From IMG/VR virus record IMGVR_UViG_3300042260_000632, positions 1-20,640 of that record: DNA of 20,640 bases. One strand, written 5' to 3'. Shown piece after piece: positions 3,764 through 20,640 of this stretch. A program made the position numbers and the translations under genes. Below the pieces are notes generated by a model, which worked only from the letters and a program-made list of their open reading frames with translations, was not told the origin of the DNA and made no database searches. This DNA comes from a virus. How positions within the stretch are numbered: position 1 is the stretch's first letter; the number at the start of each line of letters is the position of its first letter.

Positions 3764-6700
3764 ATGGTTATAAATAAAATATACCACTTAGCAGATTTAC
3801 ACATCAGAAACTTACAAAGACATAAAGAGTATCGTGAGGTATTCAAAAAGTTCTTAAAACAAGTAGAAGATGATAAAATCGAAGATTCTATTATTTATTT
3901 AGCAGGAGATATTGCTCATGCTAAAACGGAGATGTCACCTGAATTGATTCAAGAGATAAGTTGGTTTTTAACCGAATGTTCTAAACTAAGAGAAACCTTC
4001 TTAATCACAGGTAATCACGATTGTAACTTAAACAACCAACATAGATTAGATGTTCTTACGCCCATTATTGACAATCTTAATAATTCTCGCATACACTATC
4101 TTCGCGACACTGGTGTGTATCAGTATCATAATCTTACTTTTGTCGTTTATTCCATATTGGATAAAAAAGAAAATTGGCCAGAAGCTAAAACGATAGAAGG
4201 TGAAAATAAAATATGTTTATTCCACGGCCCTGTAAATAAAGCAGAAACTGATATTGGTTATGTAGTTTCATCTAACTCATTCACTGTCGATATGTTCGAT
4301 GGGTTTGATATGGTTATGATGGGGGATATTCACAAACGTCAAACTTTTGGTAAAGGATACGAACATGTTGCATATGCAGGTTCTATGATTCAACAAAATC
4401 ACGGCGAAATGTTGGAGAATCACGGGTATTTAATTTGGGATGTTCCAACTCGTACTTTTACCGAACATCATATTCATAATGATTATGGGTTTTTAACAAT
4501 CGATGTTATTGGGGGTGTAATCCCGCAATGGGTCTATGATGAGATTGATACTAAATTACCAAAAAATCCTCGTTTAAGATTACGTTTCACTAATACCGAA
4601 CCATCGGATATGAAACTTAGAATTGCAGAGTTAAAACAATTATTTAACGTTGCAGAAGTGACCGTTACAAGAACTGATACTATTGGTCAATTAAAACGTA
4701 ATTCAAAATTAAATAAGAACATAGTTGGTAATGTTAAGGATGAAACATTTCAAAACCAACTTATCAGAGATTATTTAGAAAGACAATTTCTTTTAGAGGA
4801 TTCCGATTTAGATAAAATTACAACTATAAATAAAGATGTAAATCACCGAATAGATGATTCCACTCTTGCTGAAAATATTCTTTGGACTCCTAAGACATTA
4901 GAGTTCTCAAATATGTTTTCATATGGTGAAGGTAATAAAGTTAAATTCAACGATGCAAATGGTGTAATAGGTATTTTTGCTCCTAATGCAAGTGGTAAAT
5001 CATCTTTGTTTGATGCTCTATCATTTTGTATTTTTGATAAAACATCTCGTACATCATCATCTAAAAACATCTTAAATAACCAAAAAGATAATTTCTATTG
5101 TAAGTTTAATTTTGAGATTGATGGTGTAGATTACTTTATTGAACGAAGTGCAAAGTGGACTAGAAAGGGAACAAATCTTTCAGTAAACGTAAACTTTTGG
5201 AAAGAAGATGCAGGTGTAATTACATCCCTAAATGGTGAACAACGTAGAGATACTAATAAGAATATTGAAAAATACTTAGGTAAGTTTGAAGATTTTGTTT
5301 TAACATCATTATCTTTACAAGGAAACAATGCATTGTTCATTGATAAATCACAATCAGAACGTAAGGAGATTCTTTCACAATTTATTGGAGTTGATATTTT
5401 TGATAAATTATACCAATTAGCAGCAGATGAGAATAGAGAAAATTCTACTTTGATTAAGAAATTTAAATCAGATGATTTTACCTCTAAACTTGCTAAGATT
5501 GAAACTGATTTAAAAGAAAGTAAATCAGAATACAAATTAGTTGAAATTGAATTAAATGGTATTAAGGATGAAGAGGATGGATTAAACAAAGATTTAATCA
5601 GATTAAATGGTAAAATTGTAAAATTAAATTCCGATTTAGTTGGTATTGATGAATTAGAAAAACGTAAGAAAATTCTCACCGATAAAGAAACTGATATTTT
5701 AAATACTAAAACTATCATACAAGAACGTATTGGTAAGTTAGAAGATTTACAACTACAATTAGAGGAAATTATTGATGGTTTTGATGAAGAATTATTAGAA
5801 GAAAAAATAGGTGCATTAAAGATTTGTAGAAATGATTTCAATACATCTAAACATGAATTAGAAAAATTAGATATTAAAATTAATTCATTAAAGGATAAGA
5901 AAACCCATTTAGAATCACATAAATACAACCCAAATTGTGAAATTTGTATGGATAATTCGAAATCTATTTTAGAATCTAAAAAAGATGTAGAAGAACAATT
6001 AGCAAACTTAATGGATGAATGGAGTGATGCTATTCGTATAAATGAAGTTGCTGAAGAAAAGATTAATGAATATTCAGTATATGAATCAGATTGGAAAAAC
6101 TTACAAGATACTAAGGAAAAAGAGGATAAAGTAGATAGAGAACTTTCATCTTTAATGAGTAAACTTTCTGCATCAGAAACCGAAGAGGTTCGTATTCAAA
6201 CACAAGTTGCAGAACAAACTAAACTGATTGAAGAGTATCATCAAAATGAAGAACAAATCAAAAAGAATGGTGAAATCAGAGAAGAAATTAAAGGTAAAAG
6301 AGATTTGTTAGATGAAGTTAAAAAACGATTTACAAAAACAAATAAAACACTTTTAGACCTAAATGGTAAGGTTTCTGCTCTTAAATCACAAAAAGATACA
6401 TTAGAAGAAAAGATTACCGAAGTTAAGAAATTAGAAGAACAATCCAAATTATATGAGTATTATTTAAATGCTTTAAGTAAAGATGGTGTTTCTTATGAAT
6501 TGATTGAAAAGGCACTCCCAATGATTGAAGGTGAGGTAAATAACATCTTAGCACAAATTGTAGAGTTTGGAATGCAATTAGAGATGGATGGTAAAAACAT
6601 CAATGCTTACCTTGTTTATGGTGATAATAAGTGGTCTTTGGAGATGTGTAGTGGTATGGAGAGATTTATATCAGGTCTTGCAATTAGAGTTGCTTTAATC

Positions 6701-6919
6701 AACGTATGTAACTTACCTCGTCCAAATTTCTTAGTAATCGATGAAGGGTTTGGAACATTAGATAGTGAGAATTTACAATCTTTATTTATGTTATTTACTT
6801 ACTTAAAGACACAATTTGATTTTGTGATGATTATATCTCACATCGATTCTATGAGAGATGTAGTAGATGGTTTAATTGAAATTAAAAAAGTAGATGGATT
6901 TAGTCATGTGAAGTTTTAA
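3764..6919 (+). CDS. Single-chain SbcD-SbcC (Mre11-Rad50 / gp47-gp46) recombination nuclease
   Basis: One 1051-aa chain holds both subunits of the DNA-end-processing complex that is normally encoded by two genes (T4 47 and 46). Residues 1 to about 240 are an Mre11-type calcineurin phosphatase domain: D11-x-H13, D49 in LAGD, GNHD 83-86, HGP, and GDIHKR further on. Residues from about 380 are a Rad50-type ATPase: Walker A in APNASGKSS (406-414), a long charged coiled coil broken by a zinc hook C725-E-I-C728, the signature CSGMERF (from C962), Walker B FLVIDEGFGTLD (989-1000) and a switch His in IISHIDS. All catalytic residues appear intact, so the fusion should be active in end resection and recombination-dependent replication. 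There is no frame break between the halves. The 3' end overlaps the leftward RHH gene by 20 bp. Confidence 0.92.
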   Translation: MVINKIYHLADLHIRNLQRHKEYREVFKKFLKQVEDDKIEDSIIYLAGDIAHAKTEMSPELIQEISWFLTECSKLRETFLITGNHDCNLNNQHRLDVLTPIIDNLNNSRIHYLRDTGVYQYHNLTFVVYSILDKKENWPEAKTIEGENKICLFHGPVNKAETDIGYVVSSNSFTVDMFDGFDMVMMGDIHKRQTFGKGYEHVAYAGSMIQQNHGEMLENHGYLIWDVPTRTFTEHHIHNDYGFLTIDVIGGVIPQWVYDEIDTKLPKNPRLRLRFTNTEPSDMKLRIAELKQLFNVAEVTVTRTDTIGQLKRNSKLNKNIVGNVKDETFQNQLIRDYLERQFLLEDSDLDKITTINKDVNHRIDDSTLAENILWTPKTLEFSNMFSYGEGNKVKFNDANGVIGIFAPNASGKSSLFDALSFCIFDKTSRTSSSKNILNNQKDNFYCKFNFEIDGVDYFIERSAKWTRKGTNLSVNVNFWKEDAGVITSLNGEQRRDTNKNIEKYLGKFEDFVLTSLSLQGNNALFIDKSQSERKEILSQFIGVDIFDKLYQLAADENRENSTLIKKFKSDDFTSKLAKIETDLKESKSEYKLVEIELNGIKDEEDGLNKDLIRLNGKIVKLNSDLVGIDELEKRKKILTDKETDILNTKTIIQERIGKLEDLQLQLEEIIDGFDEELLEEKIGALKICRNDFNTSKHELEKLDIKINSLKDKKTHLESHKYNPNCEICMDNSKSILESKKDVEEQLANLMDEWSDAIRINEVAEEKINEYSVYESDWKNLQDTKEKEDKVDRELSSLMSKLSASETEEVRIQTQVAEQTKLIEEYHQNEEQIKKNGEIREEIKGKRDLLDEVKKRFTKTNKTLLDLNGKVSALKSQKDTLEEKITEVKKLEEQSKLYEYYLNALSKDGVSYELIEKALPMIEGEVNNILAQIVEFGMQLEMDGKNINAYLVYGDNKWSLEMCSGMERFISGLAIRVALINVCNLPRPNFLVIDEGFGTLDSENLQSLFMLFTYLKTQFDFVMIISHIDSMRDVVDGLIEIKKVDGFSHVKF

Positions 6920-7138: not shown

Positions 7139-10100
7139 ATGGCAATAATCAAATCATATTCACCACTACAAAATTTATCGAATTACGGAACGTTTCTAAA
7201 TGATACAAATCCTAATTCAGATTATTTTCGTATAACGGAATTTAACGAAACCTTTACTGGTGGTAAAAACGGATTCTTAATAGAGGGGTCTGAGCATTTA
7301 AAAGAAACAACTGAAATAAAAATTGAAATTTTAGATGTAGATGGAAACCCTGTCTATTATGAACCAGGTAATGGTGTGCCAGAATATTATGAGGGTATAT
7401 CTAAATTAGTTTCTGTCCACGTTTATGAGGACACTCCTATTGGGATAGGTAAGATTACCATTTTGGGAGAATTGAAGACTTATGAGGATGCTAGCGGGGT
7501 TATTCGTGATATTCCAACCGAATGGAGAGGTGCATATAATGTTAAGTGGGAAAAGACCTTCCAAATCAACAAAAACATAACAAACGAAACTCGTGTAAGA
7601 TTTTATAGAAGACCAACAATTACGATTGATGAAATTGTAAAACCAATATATAACGTAACAACTCCATTTGTAACTCAAAGTGGTTCGGTGGAAGGTATTT
7701 CTGAAATACCAATTGCCGGAACTGATTTAAGTAGATGGACTGCAGGAACTCTTTATAAATTAAAAAGAGTTAGTGGTGGAGGATGGACATCTTCTATTGA
7801 TGAAAACACTATTGAAATTCCATCGTTAGGTTATTCTGCTACAGTCAAAGAGGTATTAAATACTGATGAGATTTTAGTTGATACTCCATATACAATAAAC
7901 AATATTGTAACAAATTTTACACAAAATAGTTACACATCTTCGTTTGAATATTTAGATGGTCAAACTTTTACCGAATCTGCCCTAAATGGTTCATTTGCAA
8001 AAATAAACATTTCAAATCTTAAAACATTTGTTGGTGATGTAGCTAGAGTAAAAATATTTCGTAAATCTCGTAACGATGTTGGTGATTATGTTTTAGTACA
8101 AGAATCTAAATTAGAATCAACCGAACTATTAAGAGATTTAACTGCAAGTGGAACAACTGATGTTTCATATGGTAATTTTACACAAACTAATTTAAGTACA
8201 TATTGGACAGGTTCTGCTAATTTATTACCAACAATAAATTTAGATAAATTATATGCATCAGTAAAACCTGCGAATGGACAAAGTGGTGTTCAAAATTTAT
8301 ATACAACGGAATCTATTTCGGTTTCTAAGGATGTCGAATATACACTTAGTTTTAAAACTCTTTATAGTGGTTCGGTTGATAATACAAAAACTCTTCGTGC
8401 ATATTTGAGTTCATCAACTTATACACAAGATTTCTTAACACTTTCGGGTTCTGCGATATATCAAACAAAACAAGATATTACACAAAATATTATCGAAAAT
8501 CCAATTAGTAGTTCAGTTGATACTAAATTGGTTTTTGAATTTAATGGTAGTGGTTGGCACGTATCAAATGTTAGTTTAAAAAATGCACAAGAAACATCAT
8601 TTTCACCAGATGAATTTACAATAGTACAAGATGTATCTAAAAACGTATCATCTGAAACTTTTGATTTTCGTTTTGAATTTTACGATATAAATAACAATTA
8701 TATACCAGTTGATGTATTTGCTTCAAAACAATTTACAGGTGGTAATAATTTTCCAACTAGTACAAAATTACTTACATTTGAATCCGATAGAACTGCTTTT
8801 AGATTCTCTACTGGTTCATTTGCAAATCCACAAATTCAACAAATCGGATTTAAAGTAACAAAACAAAATCTAACAGGCAGTGTAACATATTATTCATCTG
8901 CGTTTGATGCAAGTGGAAATTATATATCACCTGGTTCATATAGTGGAACTTATCCTGGTGGGTTCTCAACTTTTGGAGAGGGTGGTGCAACTTTAACAAT
9001 TGCTAACTTTACTGGTTCAGTAGTTGGGACAGTAGTAGGGTCTATTACATACACTGCATCATGTGAAGGTATTGAAGAATATGAAACTATATATCGTTTC
9101 GAAGATGGTGATAACGCACCTGGTCTTTTTGTTACATCTAATGCAAACCAATTTATATACAAAGCAACTGATTTAAGTTTAAATCCTTCTGGTCAAAAGA
9201 TTTTATTTGATGCCAAAAGAAAAAATTTAGCATCTGCAATTACTGCAATTACAATAAATTCTGGTAGTGGTGCACCACCATTAACGTTATTAAGTACTGA
9301 TAGTGGAACTGGTGTTTCTACCTATTTTTTAAGTGGTTCTACGTTTTCATACGGAACGGGTGAGGTAGAGTATTCATTTACTGCATCTGACAATTATGGG
9401 ATAAATTATTCAGATTTTATTAAAATTTCACCTGTTAAGATATTAGATGGTTTATCGGTAATACTTTCAAATGAAAACGCAACTTTACCTGCAAAATCAA
9501 CTGGTTTTGTAGAAAGTGGTTCATTTGCATTGACCAGTGGTTCGGTGAGTGTAAAGGTGGGTGGTGAAGATATTAGTAGAAATGAAGGATTGGGTACTAA
9601 TAATAGATTTGATATTATTTCAGCTACAGGTACAAATTGCAATCCAAATGATACAACACCGGATGATGCAACGTATGGTATTACTACTTTATCAGGTGAT
9701 ACCGGTTCGTTAAGTTTATTAGTAAGATATAAAGATGGTGCAGGCGATACAACCGATGTAACAAAAGTAGTAACTTATACTAAAGCAAAAAGAACTGCTC
9801 CGGTGGTTGTTGCTCTTTTATCAAATGATGCTCAATCAATAACAAAGTCAAAAACAGGTACATATGGAACTCCATCTAATTTTACAATTTCAGTAAATGA
9901 AGGAGGTTCAAATTATTCTTATTCAGCAGGTGGTACAATAAATACCTTTTATGTTTCATCTACGACGGGTGGAACAAATAGTAGTGGAACAATCACTCCG
10001 ACAACTCCTACAACTGATTCAGGTACTACTACGAGTGTTACAATGACTTATGTAAATTCGGAAGGTACAAGTGGAACTATAACAAAAACTCATAGAGTAA

Positions 10101-12307
10101 GTGTAACAATTGATGGTAATGATGGTAATGATGGAACGGATGGAACGGATGGAACGGATGGAACGGATGGTGCAGATGGTCCTGGTGTAGTATTTAGAGG
10201 GCCGTGGAGCTCCACAACAACTTATTACGATACTGATGATTATCCGACACGTAGAGATGCTGTTTTATATGATGGAACATATTATGCAACAAAACCAAAC
10301 GCAACTACAAACTTAAATAAGCAACCAGATACTGAAACTACGTTTTGGGAATCATTAGGTACTGATTCTTATTTTGTAGCAGCAGAGATTGCAATATTTA
10401 GAGAATCATATGTAAAACAAACTATAAACGTTGGAACAAATAGTAGTGGTAACGCAAATATTACAATTGCAGGTGGAACAACTTCTCCATATATTTCCAT
10501 TGGACAATCTACAAAAGGATATAATGAAACTGGTGCTTGGATTGGTAGTAATGGAACGACTGGTAGATTATCACTAAAAAGTGCATCAAATTCGTTATTA
10601 TGGGATGGTACAAGTCTTACTATAACTGGTGGTGGAACATTTAGTGGGGCTCTTTCTGCAGCTAGTGGAACATTCACCGGTGCATTAAGTGGTGGTACGA
10701 TTTCAATTGGTAGTGGTAATAGTATTTTCAAAGCAGATTCAAACGGAATTTATTTAGGACATGCAACATTTGCTTCTGCCCCGTTTAGAGTAACTCCTGA
10801 TGGTGTTTTAACCTCTACAAGTGGAACATTTTCAGGAGAAATTAATGGTGGTACTATTAACATTGGTGGAAATGATTCAAGTAGTTTTCACGTAGATTCT
10901 GCAGGACAAATGTGGTTAGGTGCTGGAAATAGTGGATTTGATTCTGCTCCATTTAGAGTTACAGCAGGTGGTGCAGTAACCGCAACAAACTTAACTTTAA
11001 CTGGGGGTAGTTTAACTATTGGTAGTGGTGCAACATATGCAAATATTAATACGGCTGGTAAATTAACTGCAGCTAATGTTGATGTATCAGGTCGTATTAC
11101 CGCAACCGAAGGGTTTATCGGTGATTGGGTACTAACTGGTGCTAACTTATATGCATCGGTAGGTACTAAAAAATTACAACTAGCAGCAGGAAGACCTGCT
11201 ATGGAATTGTATGATGGTGCAGCAATTGTAGTTGATGTAAACGCTAATACATCTTTATCGAATAGGTCTGCGGGTGCGATATCACCATCACCAGGAAGTG
11301 TTGGTACTTACAACATACCATATAGTGGTCAATATTGGACCAATAAATCAGGTACTGTCTATTCATTTGGAACTGATACTACTTACAATTTGGGTCCTGC
11401 TAGTTCCACATTTACAATTGCATCTTCGGGTGGAAATAGTGATTTAATTGGTAAATCATGTACAATAGCTGCAACTGCTGCTGATATTGCAGGTACGTTT
11501 AGAGCCTCAGGTGATGATTCTCATGCCGGTATATATTTAGTTAGAATGGATTGGTCATTTGATTATGGATTTAAAATTCAAACACCATCAACTACATTGT
11601 ATGTAACTGTGCCTCGATTAGTTACTGATACTTTATATACAATTTCTCCATATGAATTAACTGCTACATACGCTAGTACTTTAATAACTACGACATTAGT
11701 ATTAGAAGCAGGAACATATACCATAACACCAGTTTTAACTAATGTATATGCTGCAGCAACGATGGATACATCCACATTACCTGGCCCTGCTGAGTTTGGG
11801 TTGACAATGCGAACCCCATTATTAAATAGTATATCTGCAGCAGTACCTGTTTCAAAAACTGAAATGTGTGCTGGTGGGTTTCAGGTTGTATATGACACGA
11901 ACAAATATATTGAAGTAAAACGTGCTAATGAAACTGATTTCGTAAAAATTGGTGGAGGTTTATTGGTTACTGGTGATGTAACTGCTAATACTTCTTCGGA
12001 TATAAAATTAAAAGAAAATTTAGTAAAAATTGAAAATCCACTTGAAAAAGTATCTTTAATAAATGGATATACTTATGATTGGAAAGAAGGTTTCGAAGAT
12101 ATACATACAAATAAAGGAAATGACATTGGAGTAATTGCACAAGAAATCGAACAAATATTACCACAATTAGTAACAACACGTGATAATGGATTTAAAGCAG
12201 TTAGATATGATAAAATTGTTGCATTGTTGATTGAAAGTATTAAAGAACTTACAAATAAAACAGAAGAGTTACAAAACGAAATTAAACAATTGAAGGAAGA
12301 TAAGTAA
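7139..12307 (+). CDS. Giant tail fibre / host-recognition protein with S74 intramolecular chaperone
   Basis: A 1722-aa virion adhesin. The N-terminal 170 or so residues probably attach to the tail. Residues 180 to about 980 are Ser/Thr/Gly-rich beta modules. A collagen-like Gly-x-y run (DGT repeats) starts at about 992. A Trp/Tyr-rich module around 1020-1075 (GPWSSTTTYYDTDDYP to TTFWESLG) resembles chitin-binding CBM5/12 domains. Two related Gly-rich repeats about 55 aa apart share SAPFRVT and lie at about 1195-1290. The last 105 residues are a peptidase S74 / endosialidase-type chaperone: TSSDIKLKENL with probable nucleophile S1620, GVIAQEIEQILPQLV, VRYDKIVALL, and a terminal coiled coil. 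Such domains drive trimerisation and then cut themselves off. There is no signal peptide. The stop and the next start share one base (TAATG). Confidence 0.88.
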   Translation: MAIIKSYSPLQNLSNYGTFLNDTNPNSDYFRITEFNETFTGGKNGFLIEGSEHLKETTEIKIEILDVDGNPVYYEPGNGVPEYYEGISKLVSVHVYEDTPIGIGKITILGELKTYEDASGVIRDIPTEWRGAYNVKWEKTFQINKNITNETRVRFYRRPTITIDEIVKPIYNVTTPFVTQSGSVEGISEIPIAGTDLSRWTAGTLYKLKRVSGGGWTSSIDENTIEIPSLGYSATVKEVLNTDEILVDTPYTINNIVTNFTQNSYTSSFEYLDGQTFTESALNGSFAKINISNLKTFVGDVARVKIFRKSRNDVGDYVLVQESKLESTELLRDLTASGTTDVSYGNFTQTNLSTYWTGSANLLPTINLDKLYASVKPANGQSGVQNLYTTESISVSKDVEYTLSFKTLYSGSVDNTKTLRAYLSSSTYTQDFLTLSGSAIYQTKQDITQNIIENPISSSVDTKLVFEFNGSGWHVSNVSLKNAQETSFSPDEFTIVQDVSKNVSSETFDFRFEFYDINNNYIPVDVFASKQFTGGNNFPTSTKLLTFESDRTAFRFSTGSFANPQIQQIGFKVTKQNLTGSVTYYSSAFDASGNYISPGSYSGTYPGGFSTFGEGGATLTIANFTGSVVGTVVGSITYTASCEGIEEYETIYRFEDGDNAPGLFVTSNANQFIYKATDLSLNPSGQKILFDAKRKNLASAITAITINSGSGAPPLTLLSTDSGTGVSTYFLSGSTFSYGTGEVEYSFTASDNYGINYSDFIKISPVKILDGLSVILSNENATLPAKSTGFVESGSFALTSGSVSVKVGGEDISRNEGLGTNNRFDIISATGTNCNPNDTTPDDATYGITTLSGDTGSLSLLVRYKDGAGDTTDVTKVVTYTKAKRTAPVVVALLSNDAQSITKSKTGTYGTPSNFTISVNEGGSNYSYSAGGTINTFYVSSTTGGTNSSGTITPTTPTTDSGTTTSVTMTYVNSEGTSGTITKTHRVSVTIDGNDGNDGTDGTDGTDGTDGADGPGVVFRGPWSSTTTYYDTDDYPTRRDAVLYDGTYYATKPNATTNLNKQPDTETTFWESLGTDSYFVAAEIAIFRESYVKQTINVGTNSSGNANITIAGGTTSPYISIGQSTKGYNETGAWIGSNGTTGRLSLKSASNSLLWDGTSLTITGGGTFSGALSAASGTFTGALSGGTISIGSGNSIFKADSNGIYLGHATFASAPFRVTPDGVLTSTSGTFSGEINGGTINIGGNDSSSFHVDSAGQMWLGAGNSGFDSAPFRVTAGGAVTATNLTLTGGSLTIGSGATYANINTAGKLTAANVDVSGRITATEGFIGDWVLTGANLYASVGTKKLQLAAGRPAMELYDGAAIVVDVNANTSLSNRSAGAISPSPGSVGTYNIPYSGQYWTNKSGTVYSFGTDTTYNLGPASSTFTIASSGGNSDLIGKSCTIAATAADIAGTFRASGDDSHAGIYLVRMDWSFDYGFKIQTPSTTLYVTVPRLVTDTLYTISPYELTATYASTLITTTLVLEAGTYTITPVLTNVYAAATMDTSTLPGPAEFGLTMRTPLLNSISAAVPVSKTEMCAGGFQVVYDTNKYIEVKRANETDFVKIGGGLLVTGDVTANTSSDIKLKENLVKIENPLEKVSLINGYTYDWKEGFEDIHTNKGNDIGVIAQEIEQILPQLVTTRDNGFKAVRYDKIVALLIESIKELTNKTEELQNEIKQLKEDK
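10112..10180 (+). repeat. 9-bp tandem repeats encoding a collagen-like Gly-x-y stretch
   Basis: Repeats of GATGGAACG and related GATGGTAAT units encode Asp-Gly-Thr / Asp-Gly-Asn triplets from about residue 992 to 1014 of the tail fibre. The four central units are identical at DNA level, so the length could change by slippage in steps of three residues. Short collagen-like helices are common trimeric spacers in phage fibres. Confidence 0.8.
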
Positions 12308-13614
12308 TGGCTTTACAAAGTAGTGGTCCTATAAAAATGTCTGAAATACGTGATATATTGGGTTTAACCCCATCATCACCATCAGGTACGTCATTACGAG
12401 AATATAATAGACTTGCAAAATTAGCAACAAGTGATACAAAATTTGATACACCTGATATAATGAGTGAATTTTATTCTTATGCAGGTGCACCAACACCATC
12501 ACCTACTCCAAGTCCAACACCATCACCTACTCCAAGTCCAACACCGTCACCAACACCGAGTCCAACACCTACGCCAACCGAGGCCCCTTCAACTGAACTT
12601 ACTAATATTAATGTGAGTGTAGCAGGTGCACAAGATGCATGTGATGGTGGTGAATACGGAAATGTTACAATTTCAGTATATGGTACTACTATATGTAATG
12701 CAACTGGTATAAAAACATTACCATCGTTATTATTAAGTGAAATATCCGCATCTGGTTATTTCTTTGTAGCACAAACAATTGAAGGAACGCGTTACACTCG
12801 TAGATTTAGAAGAAATGGAACAGGTACTACATCTGCTACACCACAAGCTGCTTGTGTAGTATGTACGGTCACTCCGAGCCCAACTCCAAGTCCAACACCT
12901 ACTCCAAGTCCAACTCCGAGCCCAACTCCAAGTCCAACACCTACTCCAGCACCACTTCCGGTGTTTGCTGCTAGAATACATACGACACAACCAAGTGGAT
13001 ATTTGGCATGTGAGGGTGGTACTAATATTACAATTTATGGTAATAATGCAGATTTCTGCTCAGTAACTACATGGACAAGTGATAGTTTCACTTCGTTAGG
13101 TACTAATACATACTGGTTATCATATGGTGGCAACTATGTACAAATATTCCATATGAGTGGTAATACGGCAACACGTTCTCAAGCGTGTCAAGCATGTACT
13201 AATACTACACCATCACCAACTCCGAGCCCAACTCCGAGCCCAACTCCGAGTCCAACTCCAAGTCCAACTCCAAGTCCTAGTCCGAGCCCAACTCCAAGTC
13301 CTAGTCCGAGTCCAACTCCAAGTCCAACACCGAGCCCAACTCCTACTCCGGCACCAACACCTCAATTGATTTATTTATCTGCAGCAGGTGATAAATCAAC
13401 AGCATGTGCAGGAACAAATGGATATGCGGGTTATTACATTCCATCCGGAGAAAGTTGGATATATGATATAAGTGCTATTTATAGTGATATAAATGGAACA
13501 CCTGCATATAGCGGTTGGTATGCAGATGGGTTAGCAAGTAAAGTTAGATTCTGGGATGGTTCGTTTGTAACATCAGTTCAAAGTTGTGATGGTGGACCAA
13601 TTGAAGAATTATAA
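12307..13614 (+). CDS. Modular virion-type protein with Pro-Thr-Pro-Ser linkers and Cys-containing modules
   Basis: The 435-aa protein starts [16 protein letters not shown], an opening I associate with phage tail and adhesin proteins. Three long linkers of Pro-Thr-Pro-Ser/Pro-Ser repeats (residues 62-91, 189-218, 301-352) alternate with three small beta-like modules. Modules 1 and 2 share a cysteine pattern: C112/C130/C183-x2-C186 and C235/C251/C294-x2-C297. Module 3 keeps only C367 and C427. Repeated small modules on rigid linkers resemble cellulosomal or adhesin display architectures. The gene is TAATG-coupled to the tail fibre, so I infer an accessory adhesin or fibre decoration. Proline in x-Pro repeats is the classic substrate of prolyl 4-hydroxylase, and such an enzyme is the next gene, 17 nt away. 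There is no signal peptide. The exact function is unknown. Confidence 0.75.
12490..12579 (+). repeat. Pro-Thr-Pro-Ser linker 1 (24-bp DNA repeat)
   Basis: Encodes residues 62-91. At DNA level it is a 24-bp unit (eight codons) present three times and part of a fourth. The first two copies are identical and the third differs only at synonymous sites. This points to recent duplication and a variable-length linker. Confidence 0.85.
12871..12960 (+). repeat. Pro-Thr-Pro-Ser linker 2
   Basis: Encodes residues 189-218, made of 12-bp units such as CCAACTCCAAGT with third-base variation, ending in a Pro-Ala-Pro-Leu-Pro exit. Confidence 0.85.
13207..13362 (+). repeat. Pro-Thr-Pro-Ser linker 3 (longest)
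   Basis: Encodes residues 301-352 and is the longest of the three. It includes two Ser-Pro-Ser-Pro-Ser variants where Thr is replaced. The 12-bp units CCAACTCCGAGC/T recur almost unchanged, so slippage or recombination between units is likely. Confidence 0.85.
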
Positions 13615-13631
13615 AATAAAAATAAAAATAT

Positions 13632-14819
13632 ATGTTATTAAGAACAATTGATAATTTTCTATCAGAATCAGAGTGTAATCATATTATTAAGTTAATAGAC
13701 GAAAATAATTTTCCATCAACTGTCGTTGGTGGAAATAGTGGTTATACACAAACACAAAAACGAACCAGTTTTACATCTGCCCTATGTGATTGTGATAAAT
13801 TGGTTTATAGTGTAAAAGAAAAAATAAGTAATTTATTAAAAATTTCAATAAATCAAATAGAAACATTACAAGGACAATTATACCAACCAGGTCAATATTT
13901 TAGAGCTCATTATGATTATTTTGAAGGTGAAGAAGGTATGAGTCATATTGGAAATATGGGTAATAGATTATGGACTTGTATGATTTATTTAAATGATAAT
14001 TTGGAAGGCGGTCAAACTAAATTTCCTAATTTAGATTTAGAATTTATACCAAAAAAAGGTATGGCGGTTTTATGGCAAAATATTAATAAAAAAGGAGAAT
14101 TTGAAACTGATTCGTTACACGAAGGATGTGATGTTATTAGTGGTAATAAATATATAATTACTGCTTGGATACGCGAAAATGAAATACAAAATACACCACC
14201 ACCAAACCCAATAGAAATGAGTTCAATTAAAAGATTTAAAGATTATACACAATTACCAAAACTTACTAAAATGGGGTTTGAAGTTAAAAAATTACCACAA
14301 GGTATATGGAATTTTATATTAGGAATGTATGATGATGTAAAAGAATTAAAACAAGAAGAAACTTTTAATGGCAAAGATTACATCATACCAAATAATTTAA
14401 ATAAAAATTCATCTGATATTTTTAGTTTAGATAGAATTTATGAAAAACGTGATATACTACATGGATTGTTATTAGAATTACATAAAGAATGGTGTGGTGA
14501 AGATATAGAACCATCTTTCGTTTATGGAATTCGAAGTTATAACTACGGGTCAAAACTCACAATACATAAAGATAGAGTAGAAACCCATCATATTTCTTCG
14601 ATTATATGTGTTGATAAAAACTTAAATGGAAATAAAGATTGGGGATTGGATATTCAATCACATGATGGAGAATGGCATGAAGTTTTCATACAACCAGGTG
14701 AAATTTTATTATACGAATCGGCCGTTTGTGACCATGGTAGAAATGAGATATTTGAAGGAGAATATTATAGAAATATGTTTATTCATTATAAATTTAAAAA
14801 TTACATTTATCAAAATTAA
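13632..14819 (+). CDS. Prolyl 4-hydroxylase fused to a second Fe(II)/2-oxoglutarate oxygenase domain
   Basis: Hydroxylates peptidyl proline using O2, 2-oxoglutarate and Fe(II). The N-terminal domain (1 to about 190) has the full prolyl 4-hydroxylase set: H93-x-D95 (HYDYF), distal H163 (LHEG) and 2-oxoglutarate-binding K173 (GNKYIITAW). The H-to-H spacing of 70 and H-to-K spacing of 10 match animal, plant and algal enzymes. The C-terminal half (about 290-390) has a second candidate double-stranded beta-helix site: H312-x-D314, LLYESAVCDHGR with H368, and R380 as a possible 2-oxoglutarate anchor. Tandem oxygenases in one chain are unusual for phages. There is no secretion signal, so it acts in the infected cell. 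It starts 17 nt after the Pro-Thr-Pro-Ser gene, a natural candidate substrate, and is followed after 3 nt by a glycosyltransferase-like gene. Confidence 0.88.
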   Translation: MLLRTIDNFLSESECNHIIKLIDENNFPSTVVGGNSGYTQTQKRTSFTSALCDCDKLVYSVKEKISNLLKISINQIETLQGQLYQPGQYFRAHYDYFEGEEGMSHIGNMGNRLWTCMIYLNDNLEGGQTKFPNLDLEFIPKKGMAVLWQNINKKGEFETDSLHEGCDVISGNKYIITAWIRENEIQNTPPPNPIEMSSIKRFKDYTQLPKLTKMGFEVKKLPQGIWNFILGMYDDVKELKQEETFNGKDYIIPNNLNKNSSDIFSLDRIYEKRDILHGLLLELHKEWCGEDIEPSFVYGIRSYNYGSKLTIHKDRVETHHISSIICVDKNLNGNKDWGLDIQSHDGEWHEVFIQPGEILLYESAVCDHGRNEIFEGEYYRNMFIHYKFKNYIYQN

Positions 14820-14822
14820 ATT

Positions 14823-15647
14823 ATGATAAGTATACCTGTAGCAGTTGCAACACCACATTTTAAATGGCAAATATCATTATTTGAATACCAACATTTTAAA
14901 GTATATGGTAAAGATGCAATAAATAAAGCAATCATACCAATCGTTAAACGAAATTTTAGATATCAAGAAAAAATTAATGATGTCGATTGGGGATTAAAAT
15001 TACCATATCGTATGGTAGAGTCTGTTTTAGATTTATATGATTTAAACGATGAAATTTACATCCCATCAAATTGTTATACTGCAATAAAACAAATATTATC
15101 CGAAATTAGTGATGATGAATGTATCGAAATATTAGATGCGGATATGCCACATATTCGACCATATAATGGATACATTCCAAAAGATGATGAAATATTAGCA
15201 GATGATAGATATGAATCTTGGCATATGCATATAGTTGATGAAAACGGAGATAATCGTAATATCATACAAAAATATTTAAAACATAATGATAGTGGTTATA
15301 TGAATGGTGGTTCAAATATAATTGCAAAAGCATCTACTATGAAAAAAATAATAGATGAGGTTATTGATGTTGGATTACAAATTGGGTTAGAACATAAAGG
15401 AACAAAACATTCCTGGTGGCAATCTATGTATGCTATAAACGTTGCATGTCATAATAATAGAATAAAAATGATTTCAAGAGATGGTTGTTATTTTCCAAAT
15501 ATTAATGAATTAGATGATAAACATCACATTGTCCATTATAGTTGTGACCCTATTTTTAATAAATCACAATTTCCTTTAATTAATATAAAAGAATTTCCAA
15601 ATAATGCATTTTACAATGCTGTTAAAAGTTGGATTTATGAAAAATAA
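14823..15647 (+). CDS. Putative hydroxyproline/serine O-glycosyltransferase-like protein (GT95/GT96-like)
   Basis: A 274-aa protein without membrane segments. It opens IPVAVATPHFKWQISLFEYQ. It has a DxD-type metal/donor motif in EILDADMPHIRP (D105, D107), then NGGSNIIAK, WWQSMYAINVA (198-208) and IVHYSCDPIFNK (236-247). From memory, this order matches plant hydroxyproline O-arabinosyltransferases and algal peptidyl-serine galactosyltransferases, which have an N-terminal TATDS-type strand followed by WQ, then D-x-D/H, G-N-S-P-V-I-V, EMYAY and LHYTYGCDY. Those enzymes glycosylate extensin-type Pro-rich proteins. The gene lies 3 nt after the prolyl hydroxylase and 1 nt before a GT60-like gene, which supports a shared pathway. 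The resemblance is by eye and remote. A generic GT-A enzyme is the fallback reading. Confidence 0.6.
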   Translation: MISIPVAVATPHFKWQISLFEYQHFKVYGKDAINKAIIPIVKRNFRYQEKINDVDWGLKLPYRMVESVLDLYDLNDEIYIPSNCYTAIKQILSEISDDECIEILDADMPHIRPYNGYIPKDDEILADDRYESWHMHIVDENGDNRNIIQKYLKHNDSGYMNGGSNIIAKASTMKKIIDEVIDVGLQIGLEHKGTKHSWWQSMYAINVACHNNRIKMISRDGCYFPNINELDDKHHIVHYSCDPIFNKSQFPLINIKEFPNNAFYNAVKSWIYEK

Positions 15648-15648
15648 T

Positions 15649-16512
15649 ATGAAAACAATATTAGTTCAAATTGCATGTAGATTAGATAAAGAAATTAAAA
15701 AAACAATTATTGATTTATATGCAAAAGCGGATAATCCAAATGAAATTGAGGTAATTATCATAAATCAAGATTTTGAAAATGATACATGGAAACAATCAGA
15801 TTTTCCAGATAGTGTTACACTTATTAATATTGATGAAACTAAAACAAGAAATTTAGCACATACACGTTCATTTTGTAAATTGTATATAACTCCATCTCAT
15901 AAATATTTTATGAATATCGATGCACATAGTAGATTTGATGAACATTGGGATACTATATTAATAACTGCCTATGAAAATTATGGTAAAAAATGTATGATAA
16001 GTGTATATCCAAAAGGGTATAGAGTAACTCCAGAAGGAAATGATATTATAATTAGAGATGATTACTCATTTGCTATAAATCATTTTAATGTAGATAAAAA
16101 TGGTGTTTTTAGAATAGAAGCAATACCGGTTACAACTGATAAAAAATATCATAGAAGTTTAGTTGCAGGTGGATTTCATTTTACAACAATTGATTGGGTG
16201 TGGGAGGTTGGATATGACCAATATTGTGAATGGGCCGAGCATGAATTAAGTATTTCTATTAGAACTTATTGTCATGGATATGATATTGTTAGTTTTCATA
16301 TAAGACCAATATATCATTTATATGACCATACTCAACGAAAATCGATAAAATCTCCAACTTTTAATTATGGTATAAATTCAAAAGAAAGAATGCTATCACT
16401 AATGATGGGTGAAAATAAAACCTTTTTAGAAAATGTATATCCATTAGGAAACATCAGAACACTTGATGATTTTGAAAAAGAATATGATTTTAAAATAAGC
16501 CAACATTTATAA
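15649..16512 (+). CDS. GT60-like hydroxyproline N-acetylglucosaminyltransferase family protein
   Basis: A 287-aa GT-A glycosyltransferase of the family that includes Skp1-hydroxyproline GlcNAc-transferase (Pfam GlcNAc, GT60). The visible signatures in family order are an ILVQIACR start, an ETKTRNLAHTRS donor-site segment, the D-x-H metal motif in NIDAHSRFDEHWD (D91, H93), ISVYPKGY, VAGGFHFTTIDWVWEV, EHELSISIRTYCHGYD (H209-D212) and IYHLYDH (H223). The D-x-H in place of D-x-D is typical of this family. I start at ATG 15649, one base after the previous stop (TAATATG). An in-frame ATG at 15637 is possible but overlaps the upstream gene. A GT60 enzyme beside a prolyl 4-hydroxylase repeats the two-step Skp1 pathway of Dictyostelium. 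Actual donor and acceptor are unproven. Confidence 0.8.
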   Translation: MKTILVQIACRLDKEIKKTIIDLYAKADNPNEIEVIIINQDFENDTWKQSDFPDSVTLINIDETKTRNLAHTRSFCKLYITPSHKYFMNIDAHSRFDEHWDTILITAYENYGKKCMISVYPKGYRVTPEGNDIIIRDDYSFAINHFNVDKNGVFRIEAIPVTTDKKYHRSLVAGGFHFTTIDWVWEVGYDQYCEWAEHELSISIRTYCHGYDIVSFHIRPIYHLYDHTQRKSIKSPTFNYGINSKERMLSLMMGENKTFLENVYPLGNIRTLDDFEKEYDFKISQHL

Positions 16513-16543: not shown

Positions 16544-17581
16544 ATGAATTACAAACTATTGGTTACAACCGGAGCAGGAAACACTATACAAGGTGGTTCT
16601 GATATTTGGACTAATTATTTCTTAGAATTAGTGTGGCCAACTTTACCTACAAAAAAAGAGTGGAGATTATTAATAGATTCTAAACGACCAATAGCGTTTG
16701 AAGAAAAATCTTTACCAAAGGGATTACAATATCACTTTCACTATGATGATACTGAAAAAACTGATAAGTGGTTAGAAGAAAGTGAAATAATTCATGTTTT
16801 ACATCCTCACTACCACAAACGTCCACATCTTTGGCATTGGGAAGATAAATTTGGAACTGTCTTTGTTCATGCATATGCAAGAGAAATGTGTGAAATAATT
16901 GATAATAATCCTGAAATAAATCGATTACAATTTGGAACAAAAGTAGATGTTGAATTTTATGATGAATATCTTGCAACATTTAAAAGAAGAATATGGGTAG
17001 GAAATAATCCAACACAAATGATTGATGAATTTCCAAACTACACATATAACGTTCCAAATTTTTATGAATTTAAAAATAATTTACCACTTACATCTCACAT
17101 AGATAATGGTAAAATTGGATTTACTTCTCGTGCTGAATCACGTAAGTGTTTACATTGGATGAATAATCATAAAGGATTTGTTTTAACTAATCAGTTCGAT
17201 GTAAAAAATTTAAGAGATACTACAACGTATTCTTTAAATGGTATAGATTTATTTCAATGGGACCCAAATATTCATCACTTTTTTATGTTAAAAAATTGGG
17301 GTATATTTCATGGTGCATATTTTAAAGAACCTTTTGGATATTCAATTTTTCAGGCAGTTGATTATGGTAAATTACCAATAATAAATAAAGATTGGGCAAC
17401 CGAAGTTGATTACAAATATAGAGTTTCTACTAAAAATGAATTTGATGAATGTGTAAAAGAAATCATCAAAGATTCATATGTAGAGAGAGAGCATAATTGG
17501 TTAAATCTTAAAAATTATATGCAAAAATTTGATAATAAAGAAGAATGGATTGATAAAATCCGTACAGCAATTTTAGCATAA
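16544..17581 (+). CDS. GT-B fold glycosyltransferase (GT4-like)
   Basis: A 345-aa cytosolic glycosyltransferase, probably retaining and using a nucleotide-sugar donor. The N-terminal glycine-rich segment GAGNTIQGGSDIWTNYFLE (about residues 10-28) fits the acceptor-side loop of GT4 enzymes. The middle has FVHAYAREM and RRIWVGNNPTQ. The C-terminal domain begins near GKIGFTSRAESRK and carries EPFGYSIFQAVDYGKLPII (from E262), the region of the donor-binding E-x7-E motif, although the second acidic position is not a clear Glu. It has no ribosome site and starts 31 nt after the GT60-like gene. It is the last gene before a 190-nt non-coding gap. The sugar transferred cannot be read from sequence. 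Confidence 0.65.
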   Translation: MNYKLLVTTGAGNTIQGGSDIWTNYFLELVWPTLPTKKEWRLLIDSKRPIAFEEKSLPKGLQYHFHYDDTEKTDKWLEESEIIHVLHPHYHKRPHLWHWEDKFGTVFVHAYAREMCEIIDNNPEINRLQFGTKVDVEFYDEYLATFKRRIWVGNNPTQMIDEFPNYTYNVPNFYEFKNNLPLTSHIDNGKIGFTSRAESRKCLHWMNNHKGFVLTNQFDVKNLRDTTTYSLNGIDLFQWDPNIHHFFMLKNWGIFHGAYFKEPFGYSIFQAVDYGKLPIINKDWATEVDYKYRVSTKNEFDECVKEIIKDSYVEREHNWLNLKNYMQKFDNKEEWIDKIRTAILA

Positions 17582-17771: not shown

Positions 17772-18542
17772 ATGACACCATTACAAGATTTAGAATATCT
17801 TAAAAATCATTTAACAAACAATCAGGAGTTTAACGAATCTCATGAAGTAGAAACTAAACCAGTTCCATATCGTTGGTCACATGGGGCTACTGATTTACAT
17901 TTAGGGGATGGTTTAATTGTTTATTCTCTTATTCAATATATGAGAGCAAAAACTTGTGTATGTTTGGGTAGTGGTGGTGGATTTATTCCTCGTATAATGA
18001 CACAAGCTCGTTACGATTTACATCAACAAAAAATATTTGAAGGTGATTCTAACTATAATTGGGGTGATATTGGTGTTACTTATGTTGTAGATGCAATGAA
18101 TGGTATTGGAGGTAATGTAGATTGGTTTAGAGAAGAATCATTTTTTAGAAGATTTTTCTGTCCTCGTATCATTAGTAAAACTACGGAGGAAGCATTTCAT
18201 AATTTCTTTGTTCTAAATGATATTCAAATCGATTATTTACATATAGATGCAGGACATTCATATGAAAACGTAAAAGAAGATTTTGAATTGTATTCTCAAC
18301 TACTTTCACCAAATGGAATCATATCAATTCACGACACTGACCCTAACTACGCCGATAGTTACATTGTTACAAATGAAGTAAAAGATAGAGGTGATTTTGA
18401 TGATTGGCATGGACCAATAACATTTGCAAAAGAATTAAAACAAAATTCAGAATGGGAAACATTCGACCTTTTTAATTTTGGAATACAAAAAAATAAACCA
18501 GCATCAACCGGAATAACATTAGTTAGAAGATGTCAAAAATAA
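17772..18542 (+). CDS. SAM-dependent methyltransferase (Methyltransf_24-like)
   Basis: A class I methyltransferase of 256 aa. Motif I, which binds S-adenosylmethionine, is CLGSGGGF (from C64). The later signature IDYLHIDAGHSYENVKEDF (about 154-172) and the following LSPNGIISIHDTD are typical of the Methyltransf_24 group, whose members methylate sugars or small metabolites. Between them is a Trp/Phe-rich insertion (residues 95-135) that probably shapes the acceptor site. ATG 17772 is the first start after the non-coding gap, and there is no Shine-Dalgarno site. The 3' end overlaps the next glycosyltransferase by 13 nt, so the two are probably translated together. I infer O-methylation of a glycan made by its neighbours, which could cap chains. 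Confidence 0.75.
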   Translation: MTPLQDLEYLKNHLTNNQEFNESHEVETKPVPYRWSHGATDLHLGDGLIVYSLIQYMRAKTCVCLGSGGGFIPRIMTQARYDLHQQKIFEGDSNYNWGDIGVTYVVDAMNGIGGNVDWFREESFFRRFFCPRIISKTTEEAFHNFFVLNDIQIDYLHIDAGHSYENVKEDFELYSQLLSPNGIISIHDTDPNYADSYIVTNEVKDRGDFDDWHGPITFAKELKQNSEWETFDLFNFGIQKNKPASTGITLVRRCQK

Positions 18543-19378
18543 ATTTAGTTACTGTCGTAGGTCATAATACTACAATGTTAGGTCATATGATTCAACATTA
18601 TAAAAATATAGTTGATGAAATTCATGTAGTTGTGTATAGACAAACTGAAACTGATGGTATATTAGATGAGGTAAAAAAATTAGGAATTATACCAATAAAA
18701 GTAGTTACTGAACCAAAATTCAATTGGGAAAAAGTGACTGATTTATATAACGAAATTAAACGAACCAAACCAAACGAATGGTGGGTAGTTTCAGACGATG
18801 ATGAATTTCACATTTATCCAAAACCAATCAAAGAACTCATTTCAGAATGTGAAGAAAATGGTTGGGATTTTATAACAGGTGGATTCATTGATAGGATAGG
18901 AGAAAATGGAGAATTTCCAATCGTTACGAAGGACTCTAATATTTGGGAAAAGTTTCCACTTGCTGGATTTTTTAGACATCCAATGAGTGGAGCTTGTCCT
19001 AATAAAGTTTGTATAATGAAAGGATATGTTGATGTAACCCCTGGCCAACATTATGCAATTGTAGAAGATGGGAAAAATAGTTGGGGAACATCCCACCCAA
19101 AGCGATACCCAATTGGTAGAGGAGAGGGGTTAATACAAGTTCATCATTTTAAATGGGATTCAACTTGTGTTGAAAGAATAAAAGAAGTTGCAGATATTAA
19201 AAAAGAATACGCATTTTCATCGGAATATCAAATAATGTATGATGGTATAAAATGGAATGATTTTAAAATAGATGTAAATAATCCTAAATTTTTAATTGAA
19301 AAAATGACAGGTAAAATTAGTAATTTTTTTGATTACACTTATTGGAATCGATTGAGTAAAATAATAACCAAAATCTAA
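18530..19378 (+). CDS. GT-A glycosyltransferase (Glyco_tranf_2_4 / GT92-like)
   Basis: A 282-aa protein that opens INLVTVVGHNTTMLGHMIQH, the start typical of GT2/GT92-like enzymes of the Glyco_tranf_2_4 group. The nucleotide-sugar and metal site is WWVVSDDDEFHIYP (D89-D91). The later VHHFKWD (204-210) gives the conserved His and Trp near the C-terminal part of the active site. There is no membrane anchor, so it would be soluble in the infected cell. It overlaps the methyltransferase by 13 nt and is followed by a 34-nt gap with another ATATTTATAT box. Donor and acceptor are unknown. Confidence 0.72.
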   Translation: MSKINLVTVVGHNTTMLGHMIQHYKNIVDEIHVVVYRQTETDGILDEVKKLGIIPIKVVTEPKFNWEKVTDLYNEIKRTKPNEWWVVSDDDEFHIYPKPIKELISECEENGWDFITGGFIDRIGENGEFPIVTKDSNIWEKFPLAGFFRHPMSGACPNKVCIMKGYVDVTPGQHYAIVEDGKNSWGTSHPKRYPIGRGEGLIQVHHFKWDSTCVERIKEVADIKKEYAFSSEYQIMYDGIKWNDFKIDVNNPKFLIEKMTGKISNFFDYTYWNRLSKIITKI

Positions 19379-19615: not shown

Positions 19616-20640
19616 ATGGATAGACTTGGAATTATAGTTCCATATCGTAATCGACCTGAACATTTAAAAGAATTTAAGAAAAGTATAACTCGATATTTTA
19701 GAAGAAATTCACATATCGATTATAAAATAATAATCGTTCAGCAAGATGATGCAAAATTATTTAATCGTGGAATGTTACTTAACATCGGATTTAGTTATGC
19801 TAAAAAACAAAGATGTAATTATGTGATATTCCACGATGTAGATATGCTTCCTATATATGCAGATTATAATCCAACTGAATCTCCAATACATTTAGCTACA
19901 AATTTTGAATTTGAAAATAAACAAGACCATCGAGTAATATTTGACCAATATTTTGGTGGTGTAACTATGTTCCCATCGGATGATTTTGAAAGAATTAATG
20001 GATATTCTAACAAATATTGGGGTTGGGGTTATGAAGATGATGATTTATTTTTACGATGCAAACTTCATAATATTCCTTTAGCTAAAAAATATATTAAAAA
20101 TATTACGAAAAATAAACAAGTCTTAAAATTTAATGGAAATAACGCTTTAGTTAAAGCAAAAAACACAATAGATTTTACTGATGATTTTTCTATAACTATT
20201 TGTTTTGAACCAACTGATTTAAAATTTGACCATACTAAACCATCGGATGAATATTCCATTTTTAGTGTTCCTGGTTATGATTTTGCTATTTCATATACAT
20301 CATTCAATCGTTACAACTTTTGTGTATTTGATTCTACTAAAAAAGCAATATATTTAAATTCTGAAATAAAGCCCACTTATAGAACTAATATAACACTTAC
20401 TTATAACAACACATCAAAGACAATAAAGATGTATCAAGATGGAGTTTTAATAGGTGAAACTGAAATTATTAGAAAATTTTATACAAAATATAGGAAAGAA
20501 GAATTTATTTATTTAGGTGTGGGTAATCCAGATAGAGAAATAATTCCAAATTGGTTTAAAGGATATTTTGAATATTTTGCATGTTTCAATAAAACCTTAA
20601 ATGACACCGAAATATTGGAAATTGTTAATAACAAACACAA
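19616..20640 (+). CDS. GT7 (beta-1,4-galactosyltransferase-type) enzyme fused to a LamG-like domain (partial)
   Basis: The frame opens at ATG 19616 and is still open at the window edge (341 codons seen). Residues 1 to about 160 carry the GT7 signatures: GIIVPYRNRPEHL near the start, FNRGMLLNIGF, the metal motif HDVDMLP (D74-V-D76), YFGGVTMFPSDDFERINGY, and WGWGYEDDDL (from W135), which is the WGWGxEDDD block of beta-1,4-galactosyltransferases. From about residue 167 a concanavalin/laminin-G-like beta domain follows, with repeated strands (FSITICFEP, MYQDGVLIGE, YLGVGN) and the family ending FKGYFEYFACFNKTLNDTEI. The catalytic part looks complete. The LamG part probably binds a glycan or directs the enzyme to its target. 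There is no Golgi-type anchor. The donor sugar is expected to be UDP-Gal or UDP-GalNAc by family, but unproven here. Confidence 0.82.
   Translation, partial: MDRLGIIVPYRNRPEHLKEFKKSITRYFRRNSHIDYKIIIVQQDDAKLFNRGMLLNIGFSYAKKQRCNYVIFHDVDMLPIYADYNPTESPIHLATNFEFENKQDHRVIFDQYFGGVTMFPSDDFERINGYSNKYWGWGYEDDDLFLRCKLHNIPLAKKYIKNITKNKQVLKFNGNNALVKAKNTIDFTDDFSITICFEPTDLKFDHTKPSDEYSIFSVPGYDFAISYTSFNRYNFCVFDSTKKAIYLNSEIKPTYRTNITLTYNNTSKTIKMYQDGVLIGETEIIRKFYTKYRKEEFIYLGVGNPDREIIPNWFKGYFEYFACFNKTLNDTEILEIVNNKH

Follow-up and report, generated by a model that had tools for sequence, protein, structure and literature searches.

In the IMG/VR virus record IMGVR_UViG_3300042260_000632, whose whole stretch of 20,640 bases analysed here is called the window (30% GC; completeness of the record not established), the gene of a proline (Pro)-rich virion-type protein is followed by those of a prolyl 4-hydroxylase (P4H), an HPAT-like glycosyltransferase and a GT60 glycosyltransferase. 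Across the viral genomes compared, Pro-rich protein, P4H and transferase are coupled beyond chance: the genes are identified at family level, their order recurs and their presence covaries. The set is probably a mobile phage cassette that would hydroxylate and O-glycosylate Pro-Thr/Ser linkers in the fibre or adhesin proteins of its own virion, where we infer substrate, chemistry and purpose from the genes. More broadly, the genomes suggest that many uncultured water-dwelling phages may equip their virions with glycosylated hydroxyproline rods, comparable to those in the cell walls of plants and algae.

Organisation and products of the cassette

The genes from 7139 to 16512 run head to tail, namely the S74 fibre-type gene, the Pro-rich gene, P4H, the HPAT-like gene and GT60, all on the (+) strand (Table 1), with spacings of 17 nucleotides (nt) between the Pro-rich gene and P4H, 3 nt between P4H and the HPAT-like gene, and 1 nt between the latter and GT60, whose longest open reading frame (ORF) begins at 15604. 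The product of the first gene has matches among proteins annotated as distal subunits of long tail fibres, and its stop codon overlaps the start of the Pro-rich gene (TAATG); the cassette therefore starts inside the virion-fibre module. All four genes from the Pro-rich protein to GT60 were re-located in the sequence where a first-pass annotation had placed them, and its description of the region, i.e., a protein with three (Pro-Thr-Pro-Ser)n linkers, a P4H with all catalytic residues 17 nt downstream (PF13640, with invariant ligands) and two transferases of given families, held at family level. Beyond that description, the P4H has a second domain resembling 2-oxoglutarate (2OG) oxygenases, and the run of glycan-type genes extends to the window end at 20638.

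In the Pro-rich protein, an N-terminal segment precedes an alternation of three (PTPS)n linkers with three small, Cys-containing beads. Since Pro, Thr and Ser are each written with several codons in the linkers (CCA/CCT/CCG, ACT/ACA, AGT/AGC/TCA), it is the protein sequence that is conserved and not a young DNA repeat; a DNA microsatellite or an assembly artefact is ruled out by these codons together with the recurrence of the repeat. The protein holds a homologous place and order in two related contigs, L238 and L242, and its last bead shares 35% identity with a short protein, devoid of Pro linker, in the virion-gene cluster of isolate MW202828. As its N-terminal 62 amino acids (aa) have no match among named phages, its virion status rests on context.

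The P4H is composed of an N-terminal P4H domain (~1-185) and a C-terminal second 2OG-Fe(II) oxygenase-like domain (~250-390). By sequence, the former matches the P4Hs of Bacillus, Chlamydomonas, human and chlorovirus (E 9e-26 to 4e-13), the solved structures found by phmmer being 5iax (E 9e-26) and 2jig/3gze (E 6e-17). An AlphaFold2 model built on 28 homologues reached a mean predicted local distance difference test (pLDDT) of 91.6 and a predicted template-modelling score (pTM) of 0.53, the latter value probably reflecting a variable placement of the two domains with respect to one another. The best structural matches are 3gze/2jig/5hv0 and, first among all, 3gze_A (E 9e-17, template-modelling score 0.79 on the target), a structure of the algal enzyme in complex with (Ser-Pro)5. 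The iron ligands H93/D95/H163 and the 2OG-binding K173 are invariant in the 28 homologues, and thus the protein displays what defines a P4H, i.e., a 2-His-1-Asp site and a 2OG lysine in a P4H-type double-stranded beta-helix; the second domain has its own HxD...H triad (H312/D314/H368), likewise invariant. DNA hypermodification by a 2OG enzyme was also considered; it is rejected, and the PHROG names "DNA endonuclease" and "ferrochelatase" are probable misnomers, because the closest solved structures to the P4H domain, in sequence and fold, are hydroxylases of peptidyl proline and because the gene is located in the fibre module.

Against PF23452, the HPAT-like protein scores 21.9 bits (E 1.3e-4) for a cut-off of 23.9 bits, which is exceeded by 11 of the 20 related virus records (two of the 11 aligning at positions 4-249 or 7-249 of 307), with matches in none of the 14 control genomes; judged from these alignments, membership appears borderline for the window protein alone but clear for the group, GT95 and GT96 not being separable here. 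The modelled protein (pLDDT 92.8) combines a GT-A fold, close to GT8/GT6-type enzymes, with a DxD metal site, invariant in 18 sequences (D105/D107). The best Z is 14.9, to glycogenin/LgtC, and that to the Skp1 galactosyltransferase is 13.7, while a sequence search of the PDB with the HPAT profile found no relative. The fold comparisons that the first-pass annotation had proposed were thus favourable to it, the P4H model resembling the algal enzyme with (Ser-Pro)5 and the HPAT-like model GT-A protein and sugar transferases. GT60 reaches 100.8 bits against PF11397 (cut-off 21) and also has the DxH motif of the family.

Table 1. Features of the fibre module, the cassette and the downstream island (positions in the window)
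Feature	Position	Strand	Evidence
Large tail-fibre-type protein, C-terminal S74 (intramolecular chaperone) domain	7139..12307	+	PF13884, E 9.8e-15
Pro-rich virion-type protein, 435 aa, probable substrate	12307..13614	+	sequence
Linker 1, 29 residues, PTPSPTPS...	12490..12576	+	sequence
Linker 2, 27 residues, PSPTPSPT...	12874..12954	+	sequence
Linker 3, 51 residues, PSPT/PSPS repeats	13210..13362	+	sequence
Two-domain prolyl 4-hydroxylase (P4H), 395 aa	13632..14819	+	PF13640, E 7.4e-18
HPAT-like (GT95-type, PF23452) GT-A glycosyltransferase, 274 aa	14823..15647	+	PF23452, fold model, DxD
GT60 (polypeptide alpha-GlcNAc-transferase family), DxH motif IDAHSRF	15649..16512	+	PF11397, E 1.4e-28
Conserved protein, probable glycosyltransferase by context	16544..17581	+	syntenic: L238 76% identity, L242 38%
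Methyltransferase (PF13578)	17772..18542	+	syntenic in L238 and L242
GT2-like glycosyltransferase (PF13704)	18530..19378	+	syntenic in L238 and L242
Small conserved ORF, 63 aa	19413..19604	+	kept in the island of L238 and L242
GT7 (beta-4-galactosyltransferase-type) fused to LamG/ConA-like lectin domain	19616..20638	+	cut by the window end

Recurrence of the gene order in related viruses

A P4H scan of IMG/VR yielded 80 loci, which were clustered at 95, 80 and 65% identity. Genes were called Pro-rich from at least five PxP in 30 aa, and expected counts were obtained by placing the Pro-rich genes of each locus at random in 100,000 draws. The gene at -1 of P4H was Pro-rich in 34 of 42 clusters at 95% identity (10.6 expected), 21 of 29 at 80% (5.7 expected) and 10 of 15 at 65% (2.3 expected), counts that none of the draws reached, and the gene at +1 was never itself Pro-rich. 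This +1 gene encoded a glycosyltransferase in 40/42 clusters (95%) and 26/28 (80%), as called from profiles built on the loci themselves, with Pfam run on representatives, and most such genes overlap P4H by 4-26 nt. At 80% clustering, these transferases were of HPAT type (10), O-fucosyltransferase (O-FucT) type (10, of which five are fused to carbamoyltransferase or GT60) and DXD/GT32-like type (6). The occurrence of three unrelated transferase families in one slot behind the same hydroxylase argues for a shared hydroxylate-then-glycosylate logic, and other explanations are hard to find. When the search was seeded with HPAT instead, P4H lay at most two genes upstream in 19/30 clusters and a Pro-rich protein within three genes in 17/30.

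Conservation of the gene order in related phages, proposed as a check in the first-pass annotation, extends to the whole run, i.e., Pro-rich protein, P4H, HPAT, GT60, the counterpart of the gene at 16544, methyltransferase, GT2 and GT7, which L238 and L242 keep at 33-76% identity (the Pro-rich protein of L242 being recognised by repeat content); both have the window order from fibre to GT7 plus an added GDSL-type gene. A GDSL/SGNH-type gene lies between P4H and HPAT in L009 (9160-9825) and L238 (4429-5079), and its product is possibly an O-acyl-modifying enzyme of the glycan. In L023 (9208-11775) and L068 (9253-11823), P4H is directly followed by an O-fucosyltransferase-carbamoyltransferase fusion of ~855 aa. 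In L002 and L004, HPAT is followed by DegT aminotransferase and GNAT genes; other loci have genes of carbamoyltransferase and of GDP-mannose epimerase type. Such neighbours suggest unusual sugars.

Outside viruses, one genome-contig scan gave no match, and a second scan only two contigs of planctomycete metagenome-assembled genomes, L263 (7106-8812) and L264 (3405-5798), where GT60 and HPAT domains share one reading frame, a fusion that links the two transferases. The ORF upstream of this fusion reads in both contigs like a JmjC/cupin hydroxylase, and a (PT)n protein lies near it in L263, on the other strand. Among named phages, HPAT had no match in 50,697 records and no P4H match covered 80% of the query; no Pro-repeat protein adjoins the P4H of Mel-JY01 or that of Erwinia Y3.

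Many of the P4H loci come from phages with virion genes similar to their counterparts in Flavobacterium and Cellulophaga podoviruses. Two scans were thus seeded with a virion structural protein, blind to P4H and to Pro content, and complete stretches were counted. A Pro-rich protein was present in 8/8 P4H-positive versus 6/43 P4H-negative phages (p 5e-6) and, at 85% clustering, in 4/4 with P4H versus 4/26 without (p 0.003), keeping in mind that the query families differ in relatedness and that clade effects remain partly in this test. Split three ways at 95% clustering, Pro-rich proteins accompanied 7/7 phages with P4H and transferase, 8/11 with transferase only and 2/32 with neither. Two isolates, MW202828 and Flavobacterium elemoF, represent the plain state, in which these structural genes come with none of the enzymes (no P4H match) and with no Pro runs. 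Several P4H-negative Pro-rich phages have a GT60 at the same place instead. In L360, L373, L376, L381, L383, L384, L387 and L390, a GT60 of ~405 aa is found in the absence of P4H beside Pro/Thr-rich structural proteins, and it is possible that such sister phages follow a hydroxylation-free, mucin-like route. Taken with the enrichment at -1 and +1, this covariation supports the functional link between Pro-rich protein, P4H and glycosyltransferase that the first-pass annotation had drawn.

Proposed mechanism and competing explanations

In the proposed mechanism, (i) the Pro-rich virion protein would be made and its (PTPS)n linkers would take the extended polyproline II form, (ii) the adjacent P4H, with an N-terminal domain like the algal (Ser-Pro)n-binding enzyme, would hydroxylate prolines of the linkers and might modify a further position with its second 2OG domain, (iii) the translationally coupled transferase, HPAT-like in the window and O-fucosyltransferase or DXD/GT32-like in other phages, would add the first sugar, most simply to hydroxyproline, and (iv) GT60 and the downstream glycosyltransferase, methyltransferase, GT2 and GT7 would extend and cap the glycan. 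The likely effect would be stiff, protease-resistant and hydrated spacers keeping the receptor-binding beads away from the tail.

Rather unlikely, though the strongest competitor, is a parallel modification where P4H hydroxylates linker Pro while the transferases glycosylate linker Thr/Ser as in mucins, hydroxylation only tuning rigidity or transferase specificity. The alternative first transferase, O-FucT (PF10250), is best known for acting on Ser/Thr, and GT60 without P4H adjoins Pro/Thr-rich virion proteins in related phages. The GT60 family itself comprises, besides the Skp1 hydroxyproline enzyme, Thr-specific mucin alpha-N-acetylglucosamine (GlcNAc)-transferases (PMC8724618, PMC3769586), and because it contains both Hyp-directed and Thr-directed enzymes, where Hyp stands for hydroxyproline, either Hyp or Thr/Ser may be the acceptor. 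What such a parallel modification accommodates poorly is that the P4H-glycosyltransferase pair is almost invariable and translationally coupled, and that the HPAT family, named for Hyp-directed plant enzymes, occurs here mainly beside P4H.

The enzymes could also form a host-directed island remodelling host surface glycans or metabolism, the adhesin neighbours merely sharing a host-interaction region. There is a published precedent in Synechococcus phage S-SCSM1, where 2OG oxygenases likewise lie beside a protein O-fucosyltransferase, a carbamoyltransferase and nucleotide-sugar epimerases; the stretch examined there has no Pro-rich protein, and the authors read the cluster as host modification (host metabolism, cell wall), cyanophage 2OG oxygenases being taken for host-metabolism genes whose functions were not specifically investigated (PMC9602691). 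Sugar genes are present in the window too, among them that of a sulfotransferase-like protein. However, such an island predicts neither the joint presence or absence of linkers and enzymes within one virion module nor a fixed order of Pro-rich, P4H and glycosyltransferase genes with overlaps, and is held to be improbable. Slightly more improbable still is that the main target of the P4H-HPAT pair is some other protein of the phage or the host, with Pro-rich linkers as incidental or minor substrates: the pair does persist beside portal or other genes without Pro-repeat in several contigs, and solved bacterial P4Hs modifying EF-Tu are also close structural matches to the P4H model, but the Pro-rich enrichment sits at exactly -1 and the structural-gene-seeded set covaries.

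Several observations weigh against linker hydroxylation and glycosylation by the cassette. At the columns that contact substrate in the algal P4H, R112, W179 and R181 are invariant, but Tyr140, which contacts the substrate Pro (PMC9676403), is replaced by an invariant Phe (F90 in all 28 sequences), and substrate binding may therefore differ from that of the algal enzyme. P4H-HPAT occurs without visible Pro-repeat in L002 (63 kb), in L221 (122 kb) and in the portal-adjacent group L241/L245/L256/L259, contigs that are fragments or of completeness not established and may be incomplete; L002 counts against the simplest model because its HPAT is the closest to that of the window. The first-pass annotation had itself named enzymes without a Pro-rich protein as a sign against its idea of hydroxyproline glycans on the phage's own adhesin linkers; with this sign partly seen, in these contigs, the idea stands as regards genomic coupling and is weakened where the linkers are missing. 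In the converse test, seeded with Pro-repeats, P4H was near only 9/89 Pro-repeat virus proteins; it is hence not needed for such linkers, and a Pro-repeat alone is no predictor. In three contigs (L214, L216 and L223), all that lies of P4H between the Pro-rich protein and HPAT is the second 2OG domain (129-194 aa), a hint that linkers may be modified by this domain itself. The GT60-only sister phages imply that linker glycosylation can do without hydroxylation, provided that this is the activity of GT60 there. Lastly, contigs of related phages are not independent, with only four P4H-positive clusters at 85% clustering in the structural-gene set.

Relation to known systems

The closest parallel is with the Hyp-rich glycoproteins of plants and green algae (extensins and arabinogalactan proteins), which share Pro/Ser/Thr-repeat rods, a P4H of the (Ser-Pro)n-binding type, a transferase of the HPAT family (GT95), which transfers L-arabinose to hydroxyproline, and further glycosyltransferases, whereas the present system would be phage-encoded and cytoplasmic, with a two-2OG-domain P4H, a virion-protein substrate and other extension enzymes. 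The Skp1 pathway of Dictyostelium and Toxoplasma likewise relies on a cytoplasmic P4H and a GT60 (Gnt1), then several soluble transferases, but modifies a single Pro on a folded protein in O2 sensing, unlike the repeated virion linkers and the intervening HPAT-like enzyme of the window. The GT60 mucin alpha-GlcNAc-transferase of Trypanosoma cruzi has a Thr/Pro-rich mucin-like target, which fits the GT60-only sister phages, but works without prolyl hydroxylation and in the secretory pathway. Mycobacteriophages also put phage glycans on their own capsid and tail proteins (Freeman et al. 2023, cited in PMC12619734). In this virion glycosylation, there is reportedly neither prolyl hydroxylase nor Pro-repeat linkers. 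The P4H of chlorovirus PBCV-1 is virus-encoded, has the same fold and acts on Pro-containing peptides in vitro, but belongs to a eukaryotic virus, has no known glycosyltransferase partner and is of a role stated as unknown (PMC7019647).

Glycosylation of phage virions by other enzymes is already known, and so are the Hyp-glycoproteins of eukaryotes; what appears new is the crossing of virion self-glycosylation with a Hyp-glycoprotein pathway, the coupling being supported by the genomes. The first-pass annotation knew of no described phage system of this type, and a search of the open-access literature, which leaves aside subscription papers and preprints, found no phage hydroxyproline glycosylation. 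A wider claim, in which we place about even confidence, is that of a widespread and modular viral Hyp O-glycosylation in prokaryotes, where a two-domain P4H chassis with swappable HPAT, O-FucT or GT32-like transferases would enter virion genes together with Pro-rich linkers, giving the phages glycan rods of extensin or mucin type; planctomycetes, with their GT60-HPAT fusion near a (PT)n protein, may have a bacterial counterpart.

Prolyl hydroxylases of viruses are frequent in aquatic samples, and what they are used for has been called cryptic (PMC9301287); the present genes point to a definite substrate, open to testing, and to an enzyme that would act with them. If this is true, Hyp O-glycosylation, held to be characteristic of proteins from plants, algae and protists, would exist in phages with swappable transferases, offering a possible way to stiffen, protect or mask receptor-binding fibres as well as a compact source of hydroxyproline-glycosylated rods for bacterial expression.

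Downstream island and other genes of the window

Downstream of GT60, the 16544..17581 product has no Pfam, PHROG or NCBIfam match. The terminal GT7-lectin protein matches PF13733 (E 8.9e-20), PF02709 (E 2.1e-19) and PF13385 (E 2.8e-7), and its counterpart in L238 is complete, with 477 aa. At the other end of the window, a galactose-3-O-sulfotransferase-like protein (585-1157; phrog_3347, E 3e-16) could cap the GT7-made galactose on the same glycan. An Rfam search of the window gave no match, and T4-late-type promoter motifs, in similar counts on both strands, were not used as evidence.

The end of the sulfotransferase-like gene is overlapped by an ORF (1081-1584) matching phrog_447 and homing endonuclease families. 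It is followed by a DNA primase-type protein of 312 aa (1686-2624), corresponding to the N-terminal part of phrog_47 (947 positions) with the helicase part absent, and by a product (2621-3760) with no Pfam, PHROG or NCBIfam match. Next, a single ORF of 1051 aa (3764-6919) reads as SbcD/gp47 then SbcC/gp46 in one chain, with full-length relatives in Microcystis phage Mel-JY01 (39% identity) and in a 484-kb uncultured phage.

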